From positions 1 through 64,000 of the forward strand of contig NZ_ATUY01000008.1 in NCBI RefSeq assembly GCF_000420445.1: 64,000 nt of DNA, in the 5' to 3' direction. Made by a program: the position numbers and the translations under genes. Positions 55,176 to 64,000 of this stretch are shown piece by piece (the first letter of the stretch is position 1; each line of letters starts with the position of its first letter). Below the pieces are notes generated by a model. That model worked only from the letters and a program-made list of their open reading frames with translations, was not told the origin of the DNA and did not search any database. The DNA is from Actinotignum urinale DSM 15805. Lineage in GTDB: Bacteria > Actinomycetota > Actinomycetes > Actinomycetales > Actinomycetaceae.

Positions 55176-57284
55176 ATGAAATATTTACAGCCCGAAGAAT
55201 TCCCGTACGAGGTCACCGTCGTCGAAAAATTTATTCCCGTCTCCGACGGAACACAACTATGGATGAAAGCATGGATGCCGGTTACCACAGAACCTGTTCC
55301 CGCCATCCTCGAATACCTCCCCTACCGCAGTGGCGACTGGACATGGCCACGCGATTCGGAACGCCACCCCTACTATGCAGGCCACGGATACGCCTCGATT
55401 CGCGTCGATATTCGCGGACACGGAAACTCCGAAGGCGTGCCCGGCGAAGAATACGATATGCAAGAACATCTCGACGGCGTGGACGTCATTAACTGGATTG
55501 CCAACCAGGACTGGTGTACCGGGAAGGTCGGAATGTTCGGGATTTCCTGGGGCGGATTCAACTCCCTCCAACTCGCCTACATGCAACCGAAGCCCCTCAA
55601 AGCCATCGTCACCGTATGCTCCACCGACGACCGCTACGACAACGACGTTCACTATATGGGTGGCTCCATGCTCGGCGTGGACATGTTCGCCTGGGGAGCA
55701 ACAATGCTTGCCTTCCAATCCCGTCCCGTCGACAAGCGCGTATGGAAAGACCAGTGGAAAGAACAGTGGTTGCGTCGCCTCAACGAAGCCGAACCCTATA
55801 TGGAAAACTGGATGAGGCACCAAACCCGCGATGAATTCTGGAAACACGGAAGCGTGTGTGAAGATTACTCGCGTATCAACGCCGCGGTTCTTGCGGTTGG
55901 CGGATGGTTCGATCCCTATCGAGACACCGTGCTGAGACTCGTCGAAAATCTTTCAGCACAAGGAAAAAACGTGAAAGGCATCCTCGGCCCGTGGTCACAC
56001 CAATATCCAGACCGCGATATTAAACCGGGCCCGCATATCGATTTCCTCGGCGAAACCCTACGCTGGTGGGACTACTGGCTCAAAGGCAAAGAAACCGGGG
56101 TTATGGATGAGCCCCTCATGAAAAATTTCATTATGGATCCGCTCCCACCACACTCCGTGTACGACGAGATTCCAGGCCACTGGGTTGCCACCCCGCAATT
56201 CCCAGACCCCACGATTCTTCACACACCCTTCCCACTCTCCCTCTTCCAAGCAACACCTTTCGCAAGCAACTCCCCCTATCCGGGAGCGAAAGGTGCGGTA
56301 GCGTACGTCAACTCCCCACAAGATACCGGGCAAAGCGCGGGCCGCTTCTTCCCCTACGGCAACGATTCGGATCTTCCCATTGACCAACGCGCAGAGGACG
56401 GGCGAAGCCAAACCTTCAATATTCCCCTCGACAACGACATCCAGATTCTCGGTAATTGCACGGCACGCCTGCGCATCACAACACCCGGAACTCGCGGGCA
56501 AGTCTATGTTCGCCTCTGCGATGTGGCGCCAGACGGCTCCTCTACGCTGGTAACACGCGGAAACCTCAACCTCTCCGCACGTGAAGGGCGCGATAAAGTG
56601 GTGGACTTCCCCGCTGGAAAATGGGTTGAGGTGGAGATTCCCATGACGGGCATCGGCTACACGATTCCTGCCGGGCACACCTTGCGCTTGTCCGTATCTA
56701 CTGCGTATTGGCCGTGGATTTGGCCCCAGGCTCAAAACGAGGGCGTTTACATTGATATTGACGCTTCTTCCCTGGTTATTCCGAAACGCCCTGATTTTGA
56801 GGCGCTCGCGAACGAGGGCAATGAATACGCCCAGATTCGCCACAATGCCGATATGGCTATTGGTTTCGCCGATCCGGTTCAGCCCGTGAACGCTAAGGTT
56901 CTCTATCCCGACGAGGGACTCCCCGGTGTGCGCCGCCCCGAACGTCTGATTTCTACGGATGTTGCCAAGCGAGAAACCTTCATTCAGGTTGACCCCATGT
57001 ATGGCGGTACACGCATCTACCCGGACGGACTGCACTATAACGAAGATTCCGTGGAACGCTACTGGATTTCCTGGGATGACCCCACCTCCGCGCGCACGGA
57101 AGCAGAGTGGAAGATTTCCCTCTCCCGCCCGGATATGGATTGGGAGGCTTCGCTCACCTCAACGTCCCGCATCGCCTGCGACGAGAAGAATTTCTTCACC
57201 GTTTCGCATGTATGGTGCTTCGATGGCGAGGAGCTTATTTTTGAGCGCAGTTGGAAAAATGTGATTCCGCGTATCGCAAGTTAA
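55176..57284 (+). CDS. CocE/NonD hydrolase, X-Pro dipeptidyl-peptidase-like (S15)
   Basis: 702 residues from ATG 55176 (MKYLQPEEFPYEV). Alpha/beta-hydrolase core (20-330) with nucleophile Ser in FGISWGGFNS (Ser124), oxyanion and acid residues, and His in GPWSHQYP (~273), then the jelly-roll C-terminal domain of the S15 family (380-700; FIQVDPMYGGTRIYPDG). Members cleave X-Pro peptides or act as esterases. No signal peptide, so cytoplasmic. Adjacent peptide importer favours peptidase over cocaine-esterase-like activity. Confidence 0.85.
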   Translation: MKYLQPEEFPYEVTVVEKFIPVSDGTQLWMKAWMPVTTEPVPAILEYLPYRSGDWTWPRDSERHPYYAGHGYASIRVDIRGHGNSEGVPGEEYDMQEHLDGVDVINWIANQDWCTGKVGMFGISWGGFNSLQLAYMQPKPLKAIVTVCSTDDRYDNDVHYMGGSMLGVDMFAWGATMLAFQSRPVDKRVWKDQWKEQWLRRLNEAEPYMENWMRHQTRDEFWKHGSVCEDYSRINAAVLAVGGWFDPYRDTVLRLVENLSAQGKNVKGILGPWSHQYPDRDIKPGPHIDFLGETLRWWDYWLKGKETGVMDEPLMKNFIMDPLPPHSVYDEIPGHWVATPQFPDPTILHTPFPLSLFQATPFASNSPYPGAKGAVAYVNSPQDTGQSAGRFFPYGNDSDLPIDQRAEDGRSQTFNIPLDNDIQILGNCTARLRITTPGTRGQVYVRLCDVAPDGSSTLVTRGNLNLSAREGRDKVVDFPAGKWVEVEIPMTGIGYTIPAGHTLRLSVSTAYWPWIWPQAQNEGVYIDIDASSLVIPKRPDFEALANEGNEYAQIRHNADMAIGFADPVQPVNAKVLYPDEGLPGVRRPERLISTDVAKRETFIQVDPMYGGTRIYPDGLHYNEDSVERYWISWDDPTSARTEAEWKISLSRPDMDWEASLTSTSRIACDEKNFFTVSHVWCFDGEELIFERSWKNVIPRIAS

Positions 57285-57333
57285 TTTTTACGACGACGAG
57301 GGTTCCGTTATGTCGCGTTGGGCTCACTAACGT

Positions 57334-60300
57334 TCAGTGGCGTTCAGCAGTGTATTCCTGAATAGTTTTCAAAGTGAATTCATGCTGTGCTTCATCCTTC
57401 ATGGACTGAACGGCGGCACCGAAAGCAGCCACAGTTGTCATAATCGGCAAGTCAGCTGCGGTTGTGGCGGCTCGAATAGCATACCCATCGCTCGCTGATT
57501 GTTGCGCGCCACGAGTGTTGACAACAAGATCAATTTTTCCGGTATTAATAAGGTCCACAATATTGTGGGCATCGCTTTTTTCGCCCGGGTTTTGGCTCAC
57601 CACATGTGCGTTAATCCCGTAGCGGGACAAAACATTTGCGGTTCCACGTGTTGCATAGATAGTGAATCCGAGATCAACTAGCTGGGACACCGGGAAAATA
57701 ATGGCTCCCTTATCTGCATCACACACGGAAATAAGCGCCGTACCGGAAGTCGGAAGTCCTCCATAGGAAGCAATTTGCGATTTTGCGAAAGCAGCCGGGA
57801 ATGTGGTGTCCATCCCCATCACCTCACCGGTAGACCGCATTTCCGGTCCAAGAATGGTGTCCACACTGCGCCCATCCGTCGTCATAAAACGCTTAAAGGG
57901 CAACACCGCTTCCTTCACACATATGGGCGCATTGTAATCAATAATCCGTGCGTCTTTCTCGGGAAGGATTCCGCGAGCTTTCAAACTACTGATTTTCTCC
58001 CCCATCATGACTCGCGTCGCTGCCGGCGCAAGCGTTACTCCCGTTGCTTTAGACACGAAAGGAACCGTACGCGACGCACGCGGGTTGGCTTCAATAACGT
58101 AAAGAATATTCGATTGGACAGCGAATTGGATATTCACCAACCCGCGCACTCCCACACCCTTCGCAATAGCCAGGGTTGCCTCATAGATATTGTCCATAAG
58201 TGTTTGCGAGAAACTAAGGGGCGGCAAAACACAGGCGGAATCACCCGAGTGAACGCCGGCTTCCTCAATGTGTTGCATCACTCCACCGAGGAAAAGCTCT
58301 TCTCCGTCGTATATGGCATCAACATCGATTTCTACCGCGTCGGCAAGGAATTTATCGATGAGGAGTGGCGCGGTTGTGCGTGAAGCATCGGTTTTTTCTG
58401 ATTCGTGGCGGTTGAGATATTCCGCGAGTTCCGTGTGGCTGTAGACGATTTGCATTCCGCGCCCGCCCAACACATAGGATGGGCGAACCAGTACCGGATA
58501 CCCAATTTTATCCGCTACACGTAACGCTTGGGCGTCGCTTGTGGCTGTTCCGTAATCGGGAGCCTTCAAGCCCGCATCTTCGAGAACTGTTCCGAACACT
58601 GCGCGGTCTTCTGCGGCGTCAATTGCCGCCGGCGAAGTTCCCACAATCGGCAAACCGGCGTCCTCAAGCGCTTTTGCGAGGGATAGCGGTGTTTGCCCGC
58701 CGAGCTGAATAATCACCCCGGCAATAGGACCAGCCTGGGATTCGGCTCGATAAATTTCCAGAACATCTTCGAGCGTTAATGGCTCAAAATAGAGACGATC
58801 CGAAATATCGTAATCTGTGGAGACGGTTTCGGGATTGCAGTTCACGATAATTGTTTCGTATTCGTCGTTCAATGCGAAGGTCGCTTGAACACAGGAGTAA
58901 TCGAATTCGAGTCCCTGCCCTATACGATTCGGGCCACTCCCGAGAATCATCACTGCCGGTTTGGTGCGTTGCGGAACTTCAGTTTCCGTATCGTAACTGG
59001 AGTACATGTAGGCGGTTGTTGCGGCGTGCGTACCGGCGCAGGTATCCACCATTTTATAGACGGGATGCAGGCCGTATGCCCAGCGAACTTCGCGAACAGC
59101 TTCCTCGCTCATACCACGTATCTGCGCGATTTGAGAATCGGAAAAACCGTGGTATTTGGCGAGCTTCAAGACATCTTTTGTCAGGGTTGGGGCTGTTTTT
59201 ATCTGATCGGCTACCTCATTAATCAAAGCGATCTGATCAAGGAAATAGGAATCAATCGTCGTAATCTCGTTGATTTCTTCAACGGTTGCACCAGCGCGCA
59301 AGGCCTGCTGAACCTGGATAACGCGGTCTTCAGTTGCCCGTTTCATCAACTCCAGATTTTCGTCCTTATCGGGTGTGCCGTTCCAGTGGAACACCGCGCC
59401 CTTTTTATCGATACTTCTCATCGCTTTTTGTAGCGCTTGTGTGAAGTTACGACCCAGGCTCATTGCCTCCCCGACGGATTTCATCGTCGTCGTAATAGTG
59501 TTATCCGCAGCGGGGAACTTTTCGAACGCAAAACGCGGAACCTTCACCACAACATAGTCAACGGCAGGATCCTCAGTGAGTGGCAGTCCCGTCATATCGT
59601 TCGTTATCTCATCCAGCGTGTAACCGACGGCGAGTTTCGTCGTCACTTTCGCAATCGGAACACCTGTTGCTTTGGAGGCGAGAGCCGAGGAACGCGAAAC
59701 ACGCGGATTCATTTCAATAACAATCATTCGCCCAGTTTTAGGCTCCACCGCAATTTGAATATTGCATCCGCCCGCGGCAAGCCCGGTTTCACGAATAATC
59801 GCCATACCGAGATCGCGAACCTTAGTAAACTCTGCATCGCTCAAGGTGAGCGCGGGAGCCATGGTGATGGAGTCCCCGGTGTGAACACCGACCGGATCGA
59901 AATTCTCGATGCTGCACACCAAAATCGCTTGATCTTTGAAATCGCGAATTACTTCGAGTTCGATTTCTTTCCATCCGAGAATGGATTCTTCCAGGAGAAC
60001 CTCAGCAGTTGGCGAATAATGCAACCCGCCACCCACAATGCGATCGAGTTCTTCCTGGTTGTGCGCAAAACCGGAACCTAAACCGCCCATAGTAAATGAC
60101 GGACGTACGACGAGAGGGTAGCCCAATTTTTCAGCCGCCTCATGGCATTCCTCAAGCGTATGGGCAATAATGGACCGCGCCGATTCTCCCCCGCACGCAT
60201 CCACAACGTCCTTGAATTCCTGGCGATCTTCACCTTTGCGGATAGCATCAATATCTGCGCCAAGAACCTCAACATTGTATTTTTGCAAAATGCCGGCATC

Positions 60301-60609
60301 GTGTAGTGCGGTTGCTGTGTTGAGCGCTGTTTGCCCGCCGAGCGTTGCCAGGAGCGCATCGGGCCGTTCCTTCGCAATAATTTTTTCAATCACGGGAACG
60401 GTAATGGGCTCAATATAGGTGGAGTCCGCAATATGCGGGTCGGTCATAATCGTGGCGGGGTTGGAATTAATAAGAATGACGCGGAAGCCTTCCTCTTTAA
60501 GAACGCGGCACGCCTGGGTTCCCGAATAGTCGAATTCGCAAGCCTGCCCGATCACAATGGGGCCTGAGCCGATAACGAGGATAGAGTTAATATCTGTTCT
60601 GCGTGGCAT
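57334..60609 (-). CDS. carB: Carbamoyl-phosphate synthase large subunit
   Basis: 1091 residues, full length. Two ATP-grasp halves: [19 protein letters not shown] and [20 protein letters not shown] start each, with [17 protein letters not shown] and [18 protein letters not shown]; allosteric MGS domain at the C-terminus ([18 protein letters not shown]). It makes carbamoyl phosphate from bicarbonate, ATP and ammonia, normally delivered by CarA. It is 21 bp downstream of a CarA that lacks its glutaminase domain. Confidence 0.97.
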
Positions 60610-60630
60610 GGATTAATCCTTCTATTCTCT

Positions 60631-61068
60631 TTACGAATGTACGACGAGATAGTTGTGTGCGTCTTCACCGCTTAAAATGGTTGCGGTTTGCGGTGTATCG
60701 CGAATTTTGCGCATAATTGCGCGCGTATCGACCTGTTGTATACCAACGACGCCGGCGTTTTTTAGGGCTTCTTCAAGTTCGCCCGTTTTTTGATAGTGGG
60801 AACCGCGCGCTATGGGATCTCGAATAATCACACCTGCTGCTGTGTACTGAGAATCTTCACCTAAATCGAGAACTCCCGTATTTCCAATATGCGGGGTTGT
60901 AAAGAGAACAATTTTTCCAGTTACGTCTTGGGATGTAAGAAGTTCTTGGTAACCGAAAGCTGCCGTGGTTCCGCATAGGACACCGCTACTTCGTCCTCGC
61001 TGAGCGTAAGGTGTTCCGTGAAAAATCGTTCCGTCTTCTAGAATAAGTAGTGCTGTATCTACCGGCAT
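60631..61068 (-). CDS. carA: Truncated CarA: N-terminal domain only, no glutamine amidotransferase
   Basis: About 145 residues (MPVDTALLILEDGTIFHG to GEDAHNYLVVHS), matching only the small-subunit CPSase domain (GVLCGTTAAFGYQELLTSQDVTGKIVLF, FTTPHIGNTGV, TRAIMRKIR). CarA is normally about 380 residues; the class I glutaminase domain with its Cys-His-Glu triad is missing, and the stop falls at the domain border. Start 61068 is the better-spaced of two ATGs after GAGGAG. Could be a functional ammonia-dependent partner of CarB or a decayed gene. Confidence 0.85.
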   Translation of the reverse strand: MPVDTALLILEDGTIFHGTPYAQRGRSSGVLCGTTAAFGYQELLTSQDVTGKIVLFTTPHIGNTGVLDLGEDSQYTAAGVIIRDPIARGSHYQKTGELEEALKNAGVVGIQQVDTRAIMRKIRDTPQTATILSGEDAHNYLVVHS

Positions 61069-61160
61069 CATTCTCTCCTCAAACATGTGTTTGATGAACA
61101 TCACAACATTCACCATAATGAATAAAAATGACGAACATGGAATAACTATACAGGAACTTT

Positions 61161-61496
61161 ATGTTGATTCTTCTACCGCCTTCAGCGGGCAAGACGGCGC
61201 CACAATCTGGCCCCACGCTCGACCTCGTCTCTCTCTATCTCCCTGAATTTACACAGCTTCGTGAAGAAATTATTGATATTTTGCAAAAAGTTTCCGCATC
61301 AAAGGACGCTCTAAAGTTACTTAAAGCCGGTCCAAAAATAGAAACAGAAATTCTTTCCCAGGTTGTTTTATACTCCCAACCGTGTTCAAAAGCACAGAAT
61401 ATATATACAGGCGTGTTATACGATGCCGCCGATTTCCCCACGCTGACACCCAAGCAAGCGCATAAACATTACCCTGAAACAGTAGGATGTGGATAA
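61161..61496 (+). pseudogene. yaaA: Truncated YaaA-like peroxide-stress protein
   Basis: 111 residues beginning MLILLPPSAGKTAPQSGPTLDL and ending YTGVLYDAADFPTLTP... This matches the N-terminal 40-45% of YaaA/UPF0246 proteins (about 250 residues); the downstream gene starts 38 bp later, so the rest is deleted. It is divergent from the equally shortened carA. Ribosome site CAGGAAC is intact. Confidence 0.7.
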
Positions 61497-61534
61497 CTTT
61501 TTGTTTCTCAACACGAGACGGCTAGGGTAAAGAT

Positions 61535-62356
61535 ATGAAACGTCTCGCAGCAATTTCGCCATCACGGGCCAAGGACTTCCATCAATGCCCCCTTCTTTTT
61601 CGCTTCCGCAGCATTGATCAGTTCCCCGAACCCCCGTCGTTAGCCATGCTCCGAGGAACACTCGTCCATTCGGTTCTTGAACATTTATACGACGTTCCAC
61701 AGCTTGAACGAACCCTAGATTATGCCCAGTCGCTTCTTCTTCACTGTTGGGAAAAACTTCACACCGAGAACCCGGAACATCTCACGCTCTTCGATACAGA
61801 AAACCACCTGAATAATTGGCTCGATTCTGCACGTCCACTTATTTCCACATATTTCACCCTAGAAAATCCCCAATATCTTCAACCTAGAGATAGGGAAAAA
61901 TTCTTGAATAGCAGGCTTTCCTCAGGCGTAGGGGTACGCGGTATTGCTGACAGAATAGACAGGGCACCCAGTGGCGCGTTGCGTGTCGTCGATTATAAAA
62001 CCGGAAAATCTCCCCATCCGCGCTACCAACAGGACGCGCTGTTCCAAATGCGTTTTTATGCCATGTTGCTATATCTCATTGAGGGGCAAATTCCGGCGCG
62101 AACACAACTGATTTATTTGAAGGACGGGCGCACGCTCACCTACGATCCCACAGATGTCGATGTGGAGATGATTGTGGAGAACGTGAATAACACGTGGAAA
62201 AATATTAAGGAACGTTTAGATTCGCGCTATTTTGAACCGCGCAGGTCCCGGCTGTGCGATTGGTGCAGTTTTCAACGCTTCTGCCCCGAATTCGGCGGAA
62301 CGCTACCGGAAATAAGCGCCACAGGCATCGAGCATATGCGCACCGTACAGCAGTAG
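61535..62356 (+). CDS. RecB/Cas4-like PD-(D/E)XK nuclease with Fe-S cysteines
   Basis: 273 residues. His in GTLVHSVLEHLYD (~45), Asp in GIADRID (~137), and VVDYKTGK (Asp~153, Lys~155) give the nuclease active site. Four cysteines (one at 18, CPLLFRF, and three in LCDWCSFQRFCPEF, 240-252) match the iron-sulfur staple of AddB/Cas4/RecB-like exonucleases. Conserved near mshC in actinobacteria. No CRISPR genes nearby, so DNA repair is the likely role. Confidence 0.88.
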   Translation: MKRLAAISPSRAKDFHQCPLLFRFRSIDQFPEPPSLAMLRGTLVHSVLEHLYDVPQLERTLDYAQSLLLHCWEKLHTENPEHLTLFDTENHLNNWLDSARPLISTYFTLENPQYLQPRDREKFLNSRLSSGVGVRGIADRIDRAPSGALRVVDYKTGKSPHPRYQQDALFQMRFYAMLLYLIEGQIPARTQLIYLKDGRTLTYDPTDVDVEMIVENVNNTWKNIKERLDSRYFEPRRSRLCDWCSFQRFCPEFGGTLPEISATGIEHMRTVQQ

Positions 62357-62359
62357 GAT

Positions 62360-63619
62360 CTACAAGGTAATATCCACCCCAAGGAATGCCTGAACGGCGC
62401 GCGCCATCTTTTGCGCATCATATGTGTGCGAGCTACGTGCCCAGTTGTCAATGAAAACACAAGCTTGTGGCGTGTTGAGATCATCAGCGAGAATATTGCA
62501 CAAGACTTCTGCGGGATCTTCACCTTTTTCTGTTTCGCTACAGCAAGCATCTGCGCCACAACAGTTATTGGCATGTGAGAAAGCCTCCCGCCATGCAGAA
62601 AGACGCTCGGATGCATGGCGTAGCAAATCCGCGGTGTATTCCCAATCGGTACGGTAATGTTGCCCCAACATAACAAGTCGGACAGCCTGCGGATCTTCGC
62701 CTTGGGAGACAAGTTCGGACACCCTCACAAGATTACCCAACGATTTCGACATTTTCTCACCCTCATAGGCAACCATCCCGGCATGCATATGAATATCCAC
62801 ACCGGAACCGGAAAATAGTTCACGCAGATGAGATTCGCTCATTTCGTGATGCGGAAACACCAAATCGCGCCCACCAGCCTGAACCGTCACGTTTCCTTTC
62901 AATTGCTCAGCCATAATTAACGCACATTCAATATGCCAACCAGGACGCCAATATCCGGGTTTTTCACCACGTGGCTGGAAGCAATCATTTTTCACGCCCT
63001 TCCAGATGAGCGGATCAAGTTCATTCTTCTTCCCCAGCCTGTTAGAATCCCCGCCATGCCCATCAAATAAGCCCCGCAAATCTAAACCACGGAAAACGGG
63101 AGCTACCGCAAATTCTTCGTCGTGCGAAATATCGAGATATACATCTTGGGATCCGTCACTGTTCTCGAGACGATACGCCAAGCCACGCTTTTCAAGATCG
63201 CGAACGGCCCCCTCCAACTCTGGCAACACTTCCGAGATGGCTGTCCACGTCTGTGGTGGAACGCAACCCAAAAGTTCCATGTCGCTACGGAAAAGATCAA
63301 TTTGTGAATCCGCAAGTTCTCGCCAATTTACCTGGGTTGCCTCGGCTCGCTCGAAAAGCGGGTCATCAATATCGGTAATATTTTGGGCGTAAATCGGTTC
63401 CTTACCCGTTGCCAGCCACCACCGCATGAGCGCATCTGCCATGACGTACGTAAAAGCGTGTCCAAGGTGTGTGGCATCGTAAGGCGTAATTCCGCACGTG
63501 TAGAGATGCGGATGTTGGGTATCTGCAACAACACGTAAATCCTGCGTAGATGTATCAAAAAGTTTCAAAGAAGTCGTGACGTGGAGAACAGGGACATGCG
63601 GTTTCGGCCAGGTTTTCAT
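62360..63619 (-). CDS. mshC: Mycothiol ligase MshC (Cys:GlcN-Ins ligase)
   Basis: 419 residues, class I synthetase-like fold derived from cysteinyl-tRNA synthetase. YTCGITPYDATHLGHAF (zinc Cys and HIGH-like motif), PGWHIECALIMAEQL and GEKMSKSLGNLV are seen; the N-terminal GITPYDATH form and short C-terminus separate MshC from CysS. Joins cysteine to GlcN-Ins in mycothiol synthesis, an actinobacterial hallmark. Converges on the nuclease gene with a 3-bp gap. Confidence 0.93.
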   Translation of the reverse strand: MKTWPKPHVPVLHVTTSLKLFDTSTQDLRVVADTQHPHLYTCGITPYDATHLGHAFTYVMADALMRWWLATGKEPIYAQNITDIDDPLFERAEATQVNWRELADSQIDLFRSDMELLGCVPPQTWTAISEVLPELEGAVRDLEKRGLAYRLENSDGSQDVYLDISHDEEFAVAPVFRGLDLRGLFDGHGGDSNRLGKKNELDPLIWKGVKNDCFQPRGEKPGYWRPGWHIECALIMAEQLKGNVTVQAGGRDLVFPHHEMSESHLRELFSGSGVDIHMHAGMVAYEGEKMSKSLGNLVRVSELVSQGEDPQAVRLVMLGQHYRTDWEYTADLLRHASERLSAWREAFSHANNCCGADACCSETEKGEDPAEVLCNILADDLNTPQACVFIDNWARSSHTYDAQKMARAVQAFLGVDITL

Positions 63620-63800
63620 AAACTTCCTTACGTTGACACAACATCATTATCTTACTCCGATAGACATAACGTGCCCACCCGCCAAAATGTTCCCAACTCA
63701 TTAGCCCCACGCACTTTCTCACTGCTCTGGCGCCCAACCCTTCTGCCCCAAAAAATCAACGCCGACACAACCGCGCGGCACTCTCCCGTCGTACATCCCG

Positions 63801-63872
63801 ATACACACAACACTCCCAACGCACACAACACTCCCGATACACACAACACTCCCAACGCACACAACACCCACC
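63801..63872. repeat. 18-bp tandem repeat, four units
   Basis: Units of 18 bp starting at 63801, 63819, 63837 and 63855, alternating ATACACACAACACTCCCA and ACGCACACAACACTCCCG types. The array sits between divergent mshC and the aldo/keto reductase gene. Confidence 0.85.
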
Positions 63873-63900
63873 CACCCATTCCTCGTTTAAACTTAAACGT

Positions 63901-64000
63901 ATGGATTACCGTGCGGTTGGAAAAAGTGGCGTTGTTGTATCCTCTATCGGACTTGGAACCCTCACCTGGGGGCGCGATACGGAAAAAGATGAGGCAGCAG
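63901..64000 (+). CDS. Aldo/keto reductase, 5' part
   Basis: The frame begins MDYRAVGKSGVVVSSIGLGTL and runs off the right edge. The LGxSGLxVS-IGLGT(M) pattern is the N-terminal signature of NAD(P)H-dependent aldo/keto reductases. There is no ribosome site; TAAACT lies 7 bp upstream of the ATG, so the transcript may be leaderless or nearly so. Confidence 0.8.
   Translation, partial: MDYRAVGKSGVVVSSIGLGTLTWGRDTEKDEAA

Follow-up and report, generated by a model that had tools for sequence, protein, structure and literature searches.

A carbamoyl phosphate synthetase with a glutaminase-less CarA in Actinotignum urinale and its relatives, probably fed by free ammonia

Glutamine is regarded as the physiological nitrogen donor of Escherichia coli carbamoyl phosphate synthetase (CPS), a view extended to all bacterial CPSs (PMC6245113, a 2018 review), and every CPS type but CPS1 is stated to use glutamine (PMC4655335, a 2015 structure paper). 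Vertebrate CPS1 (PDB 5DOT, 5DOU) keeps a glutaminase-like domain with a Cys to Ser replacement and requires NAG, and its ammonia is proposed to travel along the interface of the two moieties, bypassing the old glutaminase site (PMC4655335). Rubino et al. (1987) reported that E. coli CarB alone can use NH3 in vivo to make carbamoyl phosphate, and E. coli variants with a blocked tunnel reportedly still function on outside ammonia. CPS III of Alcolapia fish has shifted towards ammonia (PMC7657897), and ammonia use by carAB has been suggested for Blochmannia (PMC3017870).

The DNA analyzed here, called the window, is a stretch of 64,000 nucleotides from A. urinale DSM 15805 (contig NZ_ATUY01000008.1). 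Its CPS resembles E. coli CarAB (PDB 1JDB and others) in the intact CarB, in the fold of the CarA N-domain and in the carA-carB order, but its CarA has neither the class I glutaminase domain nor the Cys269/His353 pair; Glu29 and Ser47 are also lost, as is a set of CarB residues. Like CPS1, it keeps a CarA-type N-domain and, by inference, should use free ammonia. It shares with the CPS1 type the lack of a functional glutaminase in the enzyme; however, CPS1 is one fused chain with a dead glutaminase domain, whereas the genes are separate and the domain is absent in the window. E. coli CarB alone indicates that the chemistry is possible without a glutaminase subunit, but that is a laboratory situation, whereas the present case is natural and retains the CarA N-domain. 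Alcolapia CPS III represents a convergent move from glutamine to ammonia, by a residue change there and by a domain loss here. The open-access literature searched yielded no report of a glutaminase-less CarA, which is weak evidence of novelty since subscription papers are mostly outside it. The parts are known; within that literature, a natural bacterial CPS with recurrent glutaminase deletion and matching residue loss may be new.

The carA-carB locus and its genome

The locus consists of a short carA followed by carB, with these features:

60631..61071, minus strand: carA, encoding the N-terminal domain only (CarA-N), 146 aa, or 145 aa from the second ATG at 61068
60610..60630, minus strand: gap between carA and carB, 21 bp, with a ribosome-binding-like AGAAGGA; the entire glutaminase domain is absent here
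57334..60609, minus strand: carB, full-length large subunit, 1091 aa, ATG at 60609
60979..60981, minus strand: codon of CarA Val31 at the place of E. coli Glu29 (hand-counted from the alignment)
60925..60927, minus strand: codon of CarA Asp49 at the place of E. coli Ser47 (hand-counted from the alignment)

The surrounding open reading frame (60631-61116, minus strand) ends with TAA; translation likely begins at one of two tandem ATGs, 61071 or 61068, which follow GAGGAGAG. Two claims of the original prediction thus held: that CarA ends at the domain border with about 145 instead of 380 residues, and that CarB is full length with spacing and ribosome sites intact. CarA-N meets the PF00988 (CPSase_sm_chain) profile at 110.6 bits against a cut-off of 27, over positions 1-121 of 126. 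It stays below the cut-offs of TIGR01368 (108.6 vs 221) and NF009475 (105 vs 307) because its match is confined to the N-terminal part of these NCBIfam models (positions 3-134 of 359 and 1-133 of 361). The class I glutaminase domain is absent from the carA frame and from the locus, and with it Cys269 and His353, both of which are present in 72 of 72 full CarA rows elsewhere. A tblastn search (E up to 1e-3), for which the glutaminase domain was taken from a full CarA of a relative, found no glutaminase remnant in window positions 55001-64000. CarB has both ATP-grasp halves and the oligomerisation and allosteric domains, matches the whole NCBIfam models above both cut-offs (TIGR01369, 1525.6 vs 599; NF003671, 1348.1 vs 1027) and retains 14 of the 14 catalytic-type residues checked.

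A fold model of CarA-N (54-row alignment) reached a pLDDT of 85.9 and a pTM of 0.83. Over 134 columns it superposes on the chain of E. coli CarA with a TM-score of 0.83 by query length, an rmsd of 2.0 and 40% identity, and the next structural match is human CPS1. Searching PLSDB for near matches to the carAB DNA returned just two Neisseria records at 7% coverage and was uninformative. Elsewhere in the window there are an mshC-like gene (62360-63619), consistent with an actinobacterium, and, upstream of it, a perfect two-copy tandem repeat of 36 bp with an 18-bp sub-unit (63796-63867).

The genome is a 1.92-Mb draft assembly in 29 contigs with a completeness of 99.55%. PF00988 is found in it only once, at the window's carA. 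PF00117 gives three clear places, assigned by eye from frames and neighbours to TrpG, which stands behind a trpE-like frame, GuaA and PyrG; a fourth, weak match (C7:52023) was taken as noise. Consequently, neither a second carA nor a stand-alone CarA-type glutaminase, for both of which a search had been suggested, was found in the assembly with PF00988 and PF00117, which leave PF04960-type glutaminases uncovered. The sole OTC/ATC-family gene found is argF, the last gene of argC-argJ-argB-argD-argF, and no pyrB was found in this genome; therefore, carbamoyl phosphate from this CPS is inferred to feed ArgF, i.e., arginine synthesis.

Short and missing CarA among relatives

The family set comprises 213 genomes, with the CarA N-domain in 167 and the CarB-specific domain PF02787 in 179. 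A short, glutaminase-less carA is present in 27 of the 167, the window included, and is spread over seven genera (g1, g26, g23, g10, g7, g16, and g4). The truncation of the window is therefore shared, as the original prediction had proposed to check, by 26 other genomes of the family and by one outside it. In the latter, a sister-family genome (G096, L042/L043), the short carA and carB share a contig but lie about 20 kb apart. This short CarA shows the same loss of Glu29 and Ser47. In the window's genus (g1), the remaining five of six genomes (G001-G005) lack both CarA and CarB. All five retain one OTC/ATC-family gene.

The distance from the CarA N-domain to CarB domain 3 was measured for 149 of the 167 genomes (the other 18 were not covered): 26 genomes fall at 1631-1844 and 120 at 2333-2586. 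The exceptions are G044 and G195, with the genes on separate contigs, and G242, at 1408, in which both the N-domain and the CarB frame are broken. The spacing is thus bimodal with one broken exception. In 20 of the 27 short family loci the carA stop overlaps the carB start by one base, as with the 167-aa carA of G044; the window has its 21-bp gap instead.

Outside the family, a class-wide sample contained PF00988 in 383 of 394 genomes. Besides the window, only G264, G381 and G287 gave E-values weaker than 1e-40; these weak N-domain matches, all in other families, may be short carA genes or broken copies. A recent truncation, like that of G131, would escape a screen by PF00988 score alone. In a named set of 80 CarB loci, among which no Actinomycetaceae name was recognised, 71 hold CarA, always in frames of at least 300 aa. 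Two other loci deserve mention. The carA frame of L057 (G162) has 200 aa and its glutaminase continues in another frame, by a frame shift or a sequencing error, and this case was rejected as domain loss because the glutaminase sequence persists out of frame. At L059 (G168), the open frame of CarA is extended at the N-terminus (591 aa), and its glutaminase is divergent.

Short and full carA adjoin within g7, g10, g16, g23, and g4 on the CarB tree. A 46-row tree gave eight state changes, G096 included, or seven if the two short pairs of g10 are joined. This was a quick, non-mixture tree with nine trait columns excluded and 12 divergent rows of 58 omitted. Forcing the 28 short rows into one clade cost 1162 log units and was rejected (p-AU 1.8e-186). 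Forcing the two g10 pairs (four rows) together was not rejected (p-AU 0.356), so that two separate events in g10 are not secure and the event count is seven or eight. Loss rather than gain of the domain is the simpler reading, although the tree alone cannot separate them. The ends of some short proteins, compared by eye, resemble parts of full CarA: G200 has LFDRFLSHVT near its end, similar to the last helix (LFDRFISLMT in G014), and G199 and G228 end with ILTAAMEEQH (LMTAAKETH in G014). Such ends would be expected if an internal in-frame segment had been deleted and the end retained, a tentative hint of separate events.

There are also genomes having CarB without any PF00988 match. They are 13 in four clades: G010, eight of g24, three of g16, and G240, the only CarA-less genome inside a short-CarA clade. 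Full CarB is encoded at the ten loci read, L045, L046 and L118-L120 (g24), L044 (G010), L114-L116 (g16), and L117 (G240). With a profile of short CarA, no hidden N-domain was matched near carB at E < 0.09 in 10 of the 13 loci. In G028 (L045), carB stands in the row pyrC, carB, a pyrK-like gene, pyrD and pyrF, with pyrB nearby. The CarA-less state may have come about by continued reduction or arisen separately.

Residue losses and selection in CarA and CarB

Glu29 and Ser47 (E. coli numbering) are each present in 49 of 49 full CarA rows vs 0 of 28 short rows, a loss that covers all eight short clades. Tyr48 is retained in only two and Gln51 in three of the 28. Ten residues, G12, G17, G24, H59, G61, G79, R83, D114, T115, and R116, are kept in all 28. 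The 49 full rows represent 41 distinct genomes, E. coli included, eight genomes being present twice; G242 was left out of the counts. Since rows L006-L035 were chosen by the TGYQE motif, positions 37-41 are not countable, but Glu29 and Ser47 lie outside them. Glu29, Ser47 and Gln51 also occur in 72 of 72 full CarA sequences, i.e., 71 named loci and E. coli. The E. coli structures have Ser47 in contact with glutamine and Met36 in the wall of the ammonia tunnel.

CarA-N is under purifying selection, as inferred from dN/dS values of 0.06-0.34 in 11 of 12 pairs. In the remaining pair, G123/G131, the value is 0.56 and that of CarB is also raised (0.20). This value, together with the broken CarB frame of G131 and the degenerate G242, indicates that some copies may be decaying. 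The dN/dS of CarA-N exceeds that of CarB in all ten short pairs for which both are computable. In these estimates dS is saturated in several pairs, several short-CarA starts are uncertain, and two genomes are used in two pairs each.

On the CarB side, 346 columns are at least 95% invariant in 20 rows from full-CarA genomes, and loss of a column in a clade means that fewer than half the rows of that clade retain the residue. Of these columns, 305 are lost in none of the eight short clades. Convergent losses affect F348 and E535 (seven clades each), E349 (six), Q262 (five), T331 and F536 (four each), and N227, R265, and T344 (three each). F348, E349 and E535 are present in 78 of 81 CarB rows of the named set; the three rows L194, L195 and L220, apparently wrong frames, differ at both 348 and 535. 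The columns lost in at least two clades number 14 of 186 in residues 1-400 and 3 of 30 in 401-552; the allosteric part, with 13 columns, has a single one, and none is among the 117 columns of residues 553-935. According to the published domain borders, the small subunit contacts the carboxyphosphate and oligomerisation domains (PMC6245113); all nine convergent sites fall in these two domains, as placed by domain and not by measured contacts.

A mock control with eight full-CarA genera and a fixed divergent reference set gave 1.11 columns lost in at least four units (maximum 5) vs 6.35 for the real clades, and 0.23 vs 3.87 in at least five units. Losses in at least one unit were 45 real vs 50 mock, and therefore CarB is not in general decay. 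In the first mock control the separation was unclear (lost in at least four units, mock mean 4.54 with a maximum of 70 vs real 8.07 with a minimum of 0 under a subsampled reference), because the divergent reference rows were drawn at random and the comparison was confounded. Relative to full-CarA genera, the excess of convergent CarB losses in the short-CarA clades is specific, in a comparison that rests on sequence alone. The window's CarB itself retains 327 of the 346 columns, and of the 19 at which it departs, 15 are found between residues 227 and 536; the yardstick rows of this comparison helped to define the invariant columns, so that their few departures are partly by construction.

In the CarA-less genomes, F348 and E349 are lost in four of four clades. 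Furthermore, a second set of CarB residues, D459, R494, K527, C532, T540, and E552, is lost in three or four of these four clades and in at most one of the eight short clades. Possibly this set faces the CarA N-domain, an inference to be taken with caution, as R494 and K527 occur in only 56 and 58 of the 81 named rows, respectively.

An ammonia-fed synthetase and rival explanations

At the level of sequence, the glutaminase domain is gone, with no substitute CarA found; CarB is intact and CarA-N is under selection, and the short state is recurrent. The likely explanation, inferred without any enzyme assay, is that the window encodes an ammonia-fed CPS in which the intact CarB has the glutaminase-less CarA-N as a structural partner. 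In this view, free NH3 from solution would enter the carboxyphosphate site of CarB, and CarA-N would be kept to cover and stabilise the carboxyphosphate and oligomerisation surface, perhaps also lining the path of outside ammonia as proposed for human CPS1. The product would go to ArgF in the window's genome and to PyrB, for pyrimidines, in relatives such as G058, whose short carA sits in pyrR-pyrB-pyrC-carA-carB-pyrF. Since ammonia serves E. coli CPS as a substrate only when its concentration is very high (PMC6245113), either the kinetics would have to have shifted greatly or the niche would have to be very rich in ammonia.

Loss of glutamate synthase, with ammonium as the main nitrogen currency, may have been a precondition. 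GOGAT (PF01645, E < 1e-60) is found in 1 of 29 short genomes (G242 included), 1 of 13 CarA-less genomes, 0 of the 5 CarAB-less g1 genomes, and 16 of 33 full genomes, the last being chosen by the author. The link has a p of 1.5e-5 by genome and is weak by clade (10 of 12 clades wholly without vs 17 of 33 genomes, Fisher p 0.086); it is a suggestive lead that might explain the change, and no more.

The alternative that survives best, though unlikely, is that CarA is a decaying pseudogene, its N-domain a mere leftover, and that CarB works alone. In its favour, CarA-N evolves faster than CarB, 13 genomes are CarB-only with G240 lying inside a short clade, and G242 and G131 look broken. Against it stand the purifying selection in 11 of 12 pairs, the one-base overlap with carB in 20 of 27 short family loci, the ten residues retained in 28 of 28 rows, and the bimodal spacing with its one broken exception. 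The original claim that a clean domain border is not what random decay would most often give is supported by the shared truncation, the spacing and the selection.

A second alternative, that another glutaminase (TrpG, GuaA, PyrG or an unknown one) docks in trans and feeds ammonia to CarA-N/CarB, is very unlikely. TrpG, GuaA and PyrG are present in the genome, and shared amidotransferase subunits occur elsewhere. However, Glu29, Ser47 and the conserved CarB set are lost in short lineages, and thus a second glutaminase in the place of CarA is disfavoured; nor was an extra class I glutaminase found, with PF04960-type and other ammonia sources outside the search. The earlier claim that the enzyme would depend on free ammonia or on another glutaminase is thus supported as a whole, its second branch being disfavoured, and the use of ammonia remains inferred, not measured.

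An error of sequencing or assembly in the window, which the draft state in 29 contigs and the frame-shifted full CarA of G162 might suggest, is all but excluded, as there is no glutaminase sequence in any frame of the locus and the same state occurs in 26 other family genomes and one outside, by which the original prediction's refuting case of a sequencing error is ruled out.

For the ammonia-fed reading there is a bolder form, which we would neither back nor dismiss: that one bacterial family, with one sister-family genome included, turned a glutamine-dependent CPS at least seven times into a dedicated ammonia-fed enzyme by deletion of the glutaminase. The CarA N-domain would be kept as a collar guiding or gating outside ammonia, the same CarA and CarB residues would be released each time, and four more clades would have become CarB-only, one of them from inside a short-CarA clade. 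Ammonia use, inferred here, is not expected of a bacterial CPS, the enzyme that normally starts arginine and pyrimidine synthesis, and repeated natural loss of the domain, alongside full-length sisters within the same genera, would run counter to the glutamine-only view of bacterial CPS. The losses would show which residues serve the coupling to the glutaminase, and for the entry of free ammonia into CPS, which is unsettled in human CPS1, the short CarA-CarB pair would offer a minimal test enzyme.
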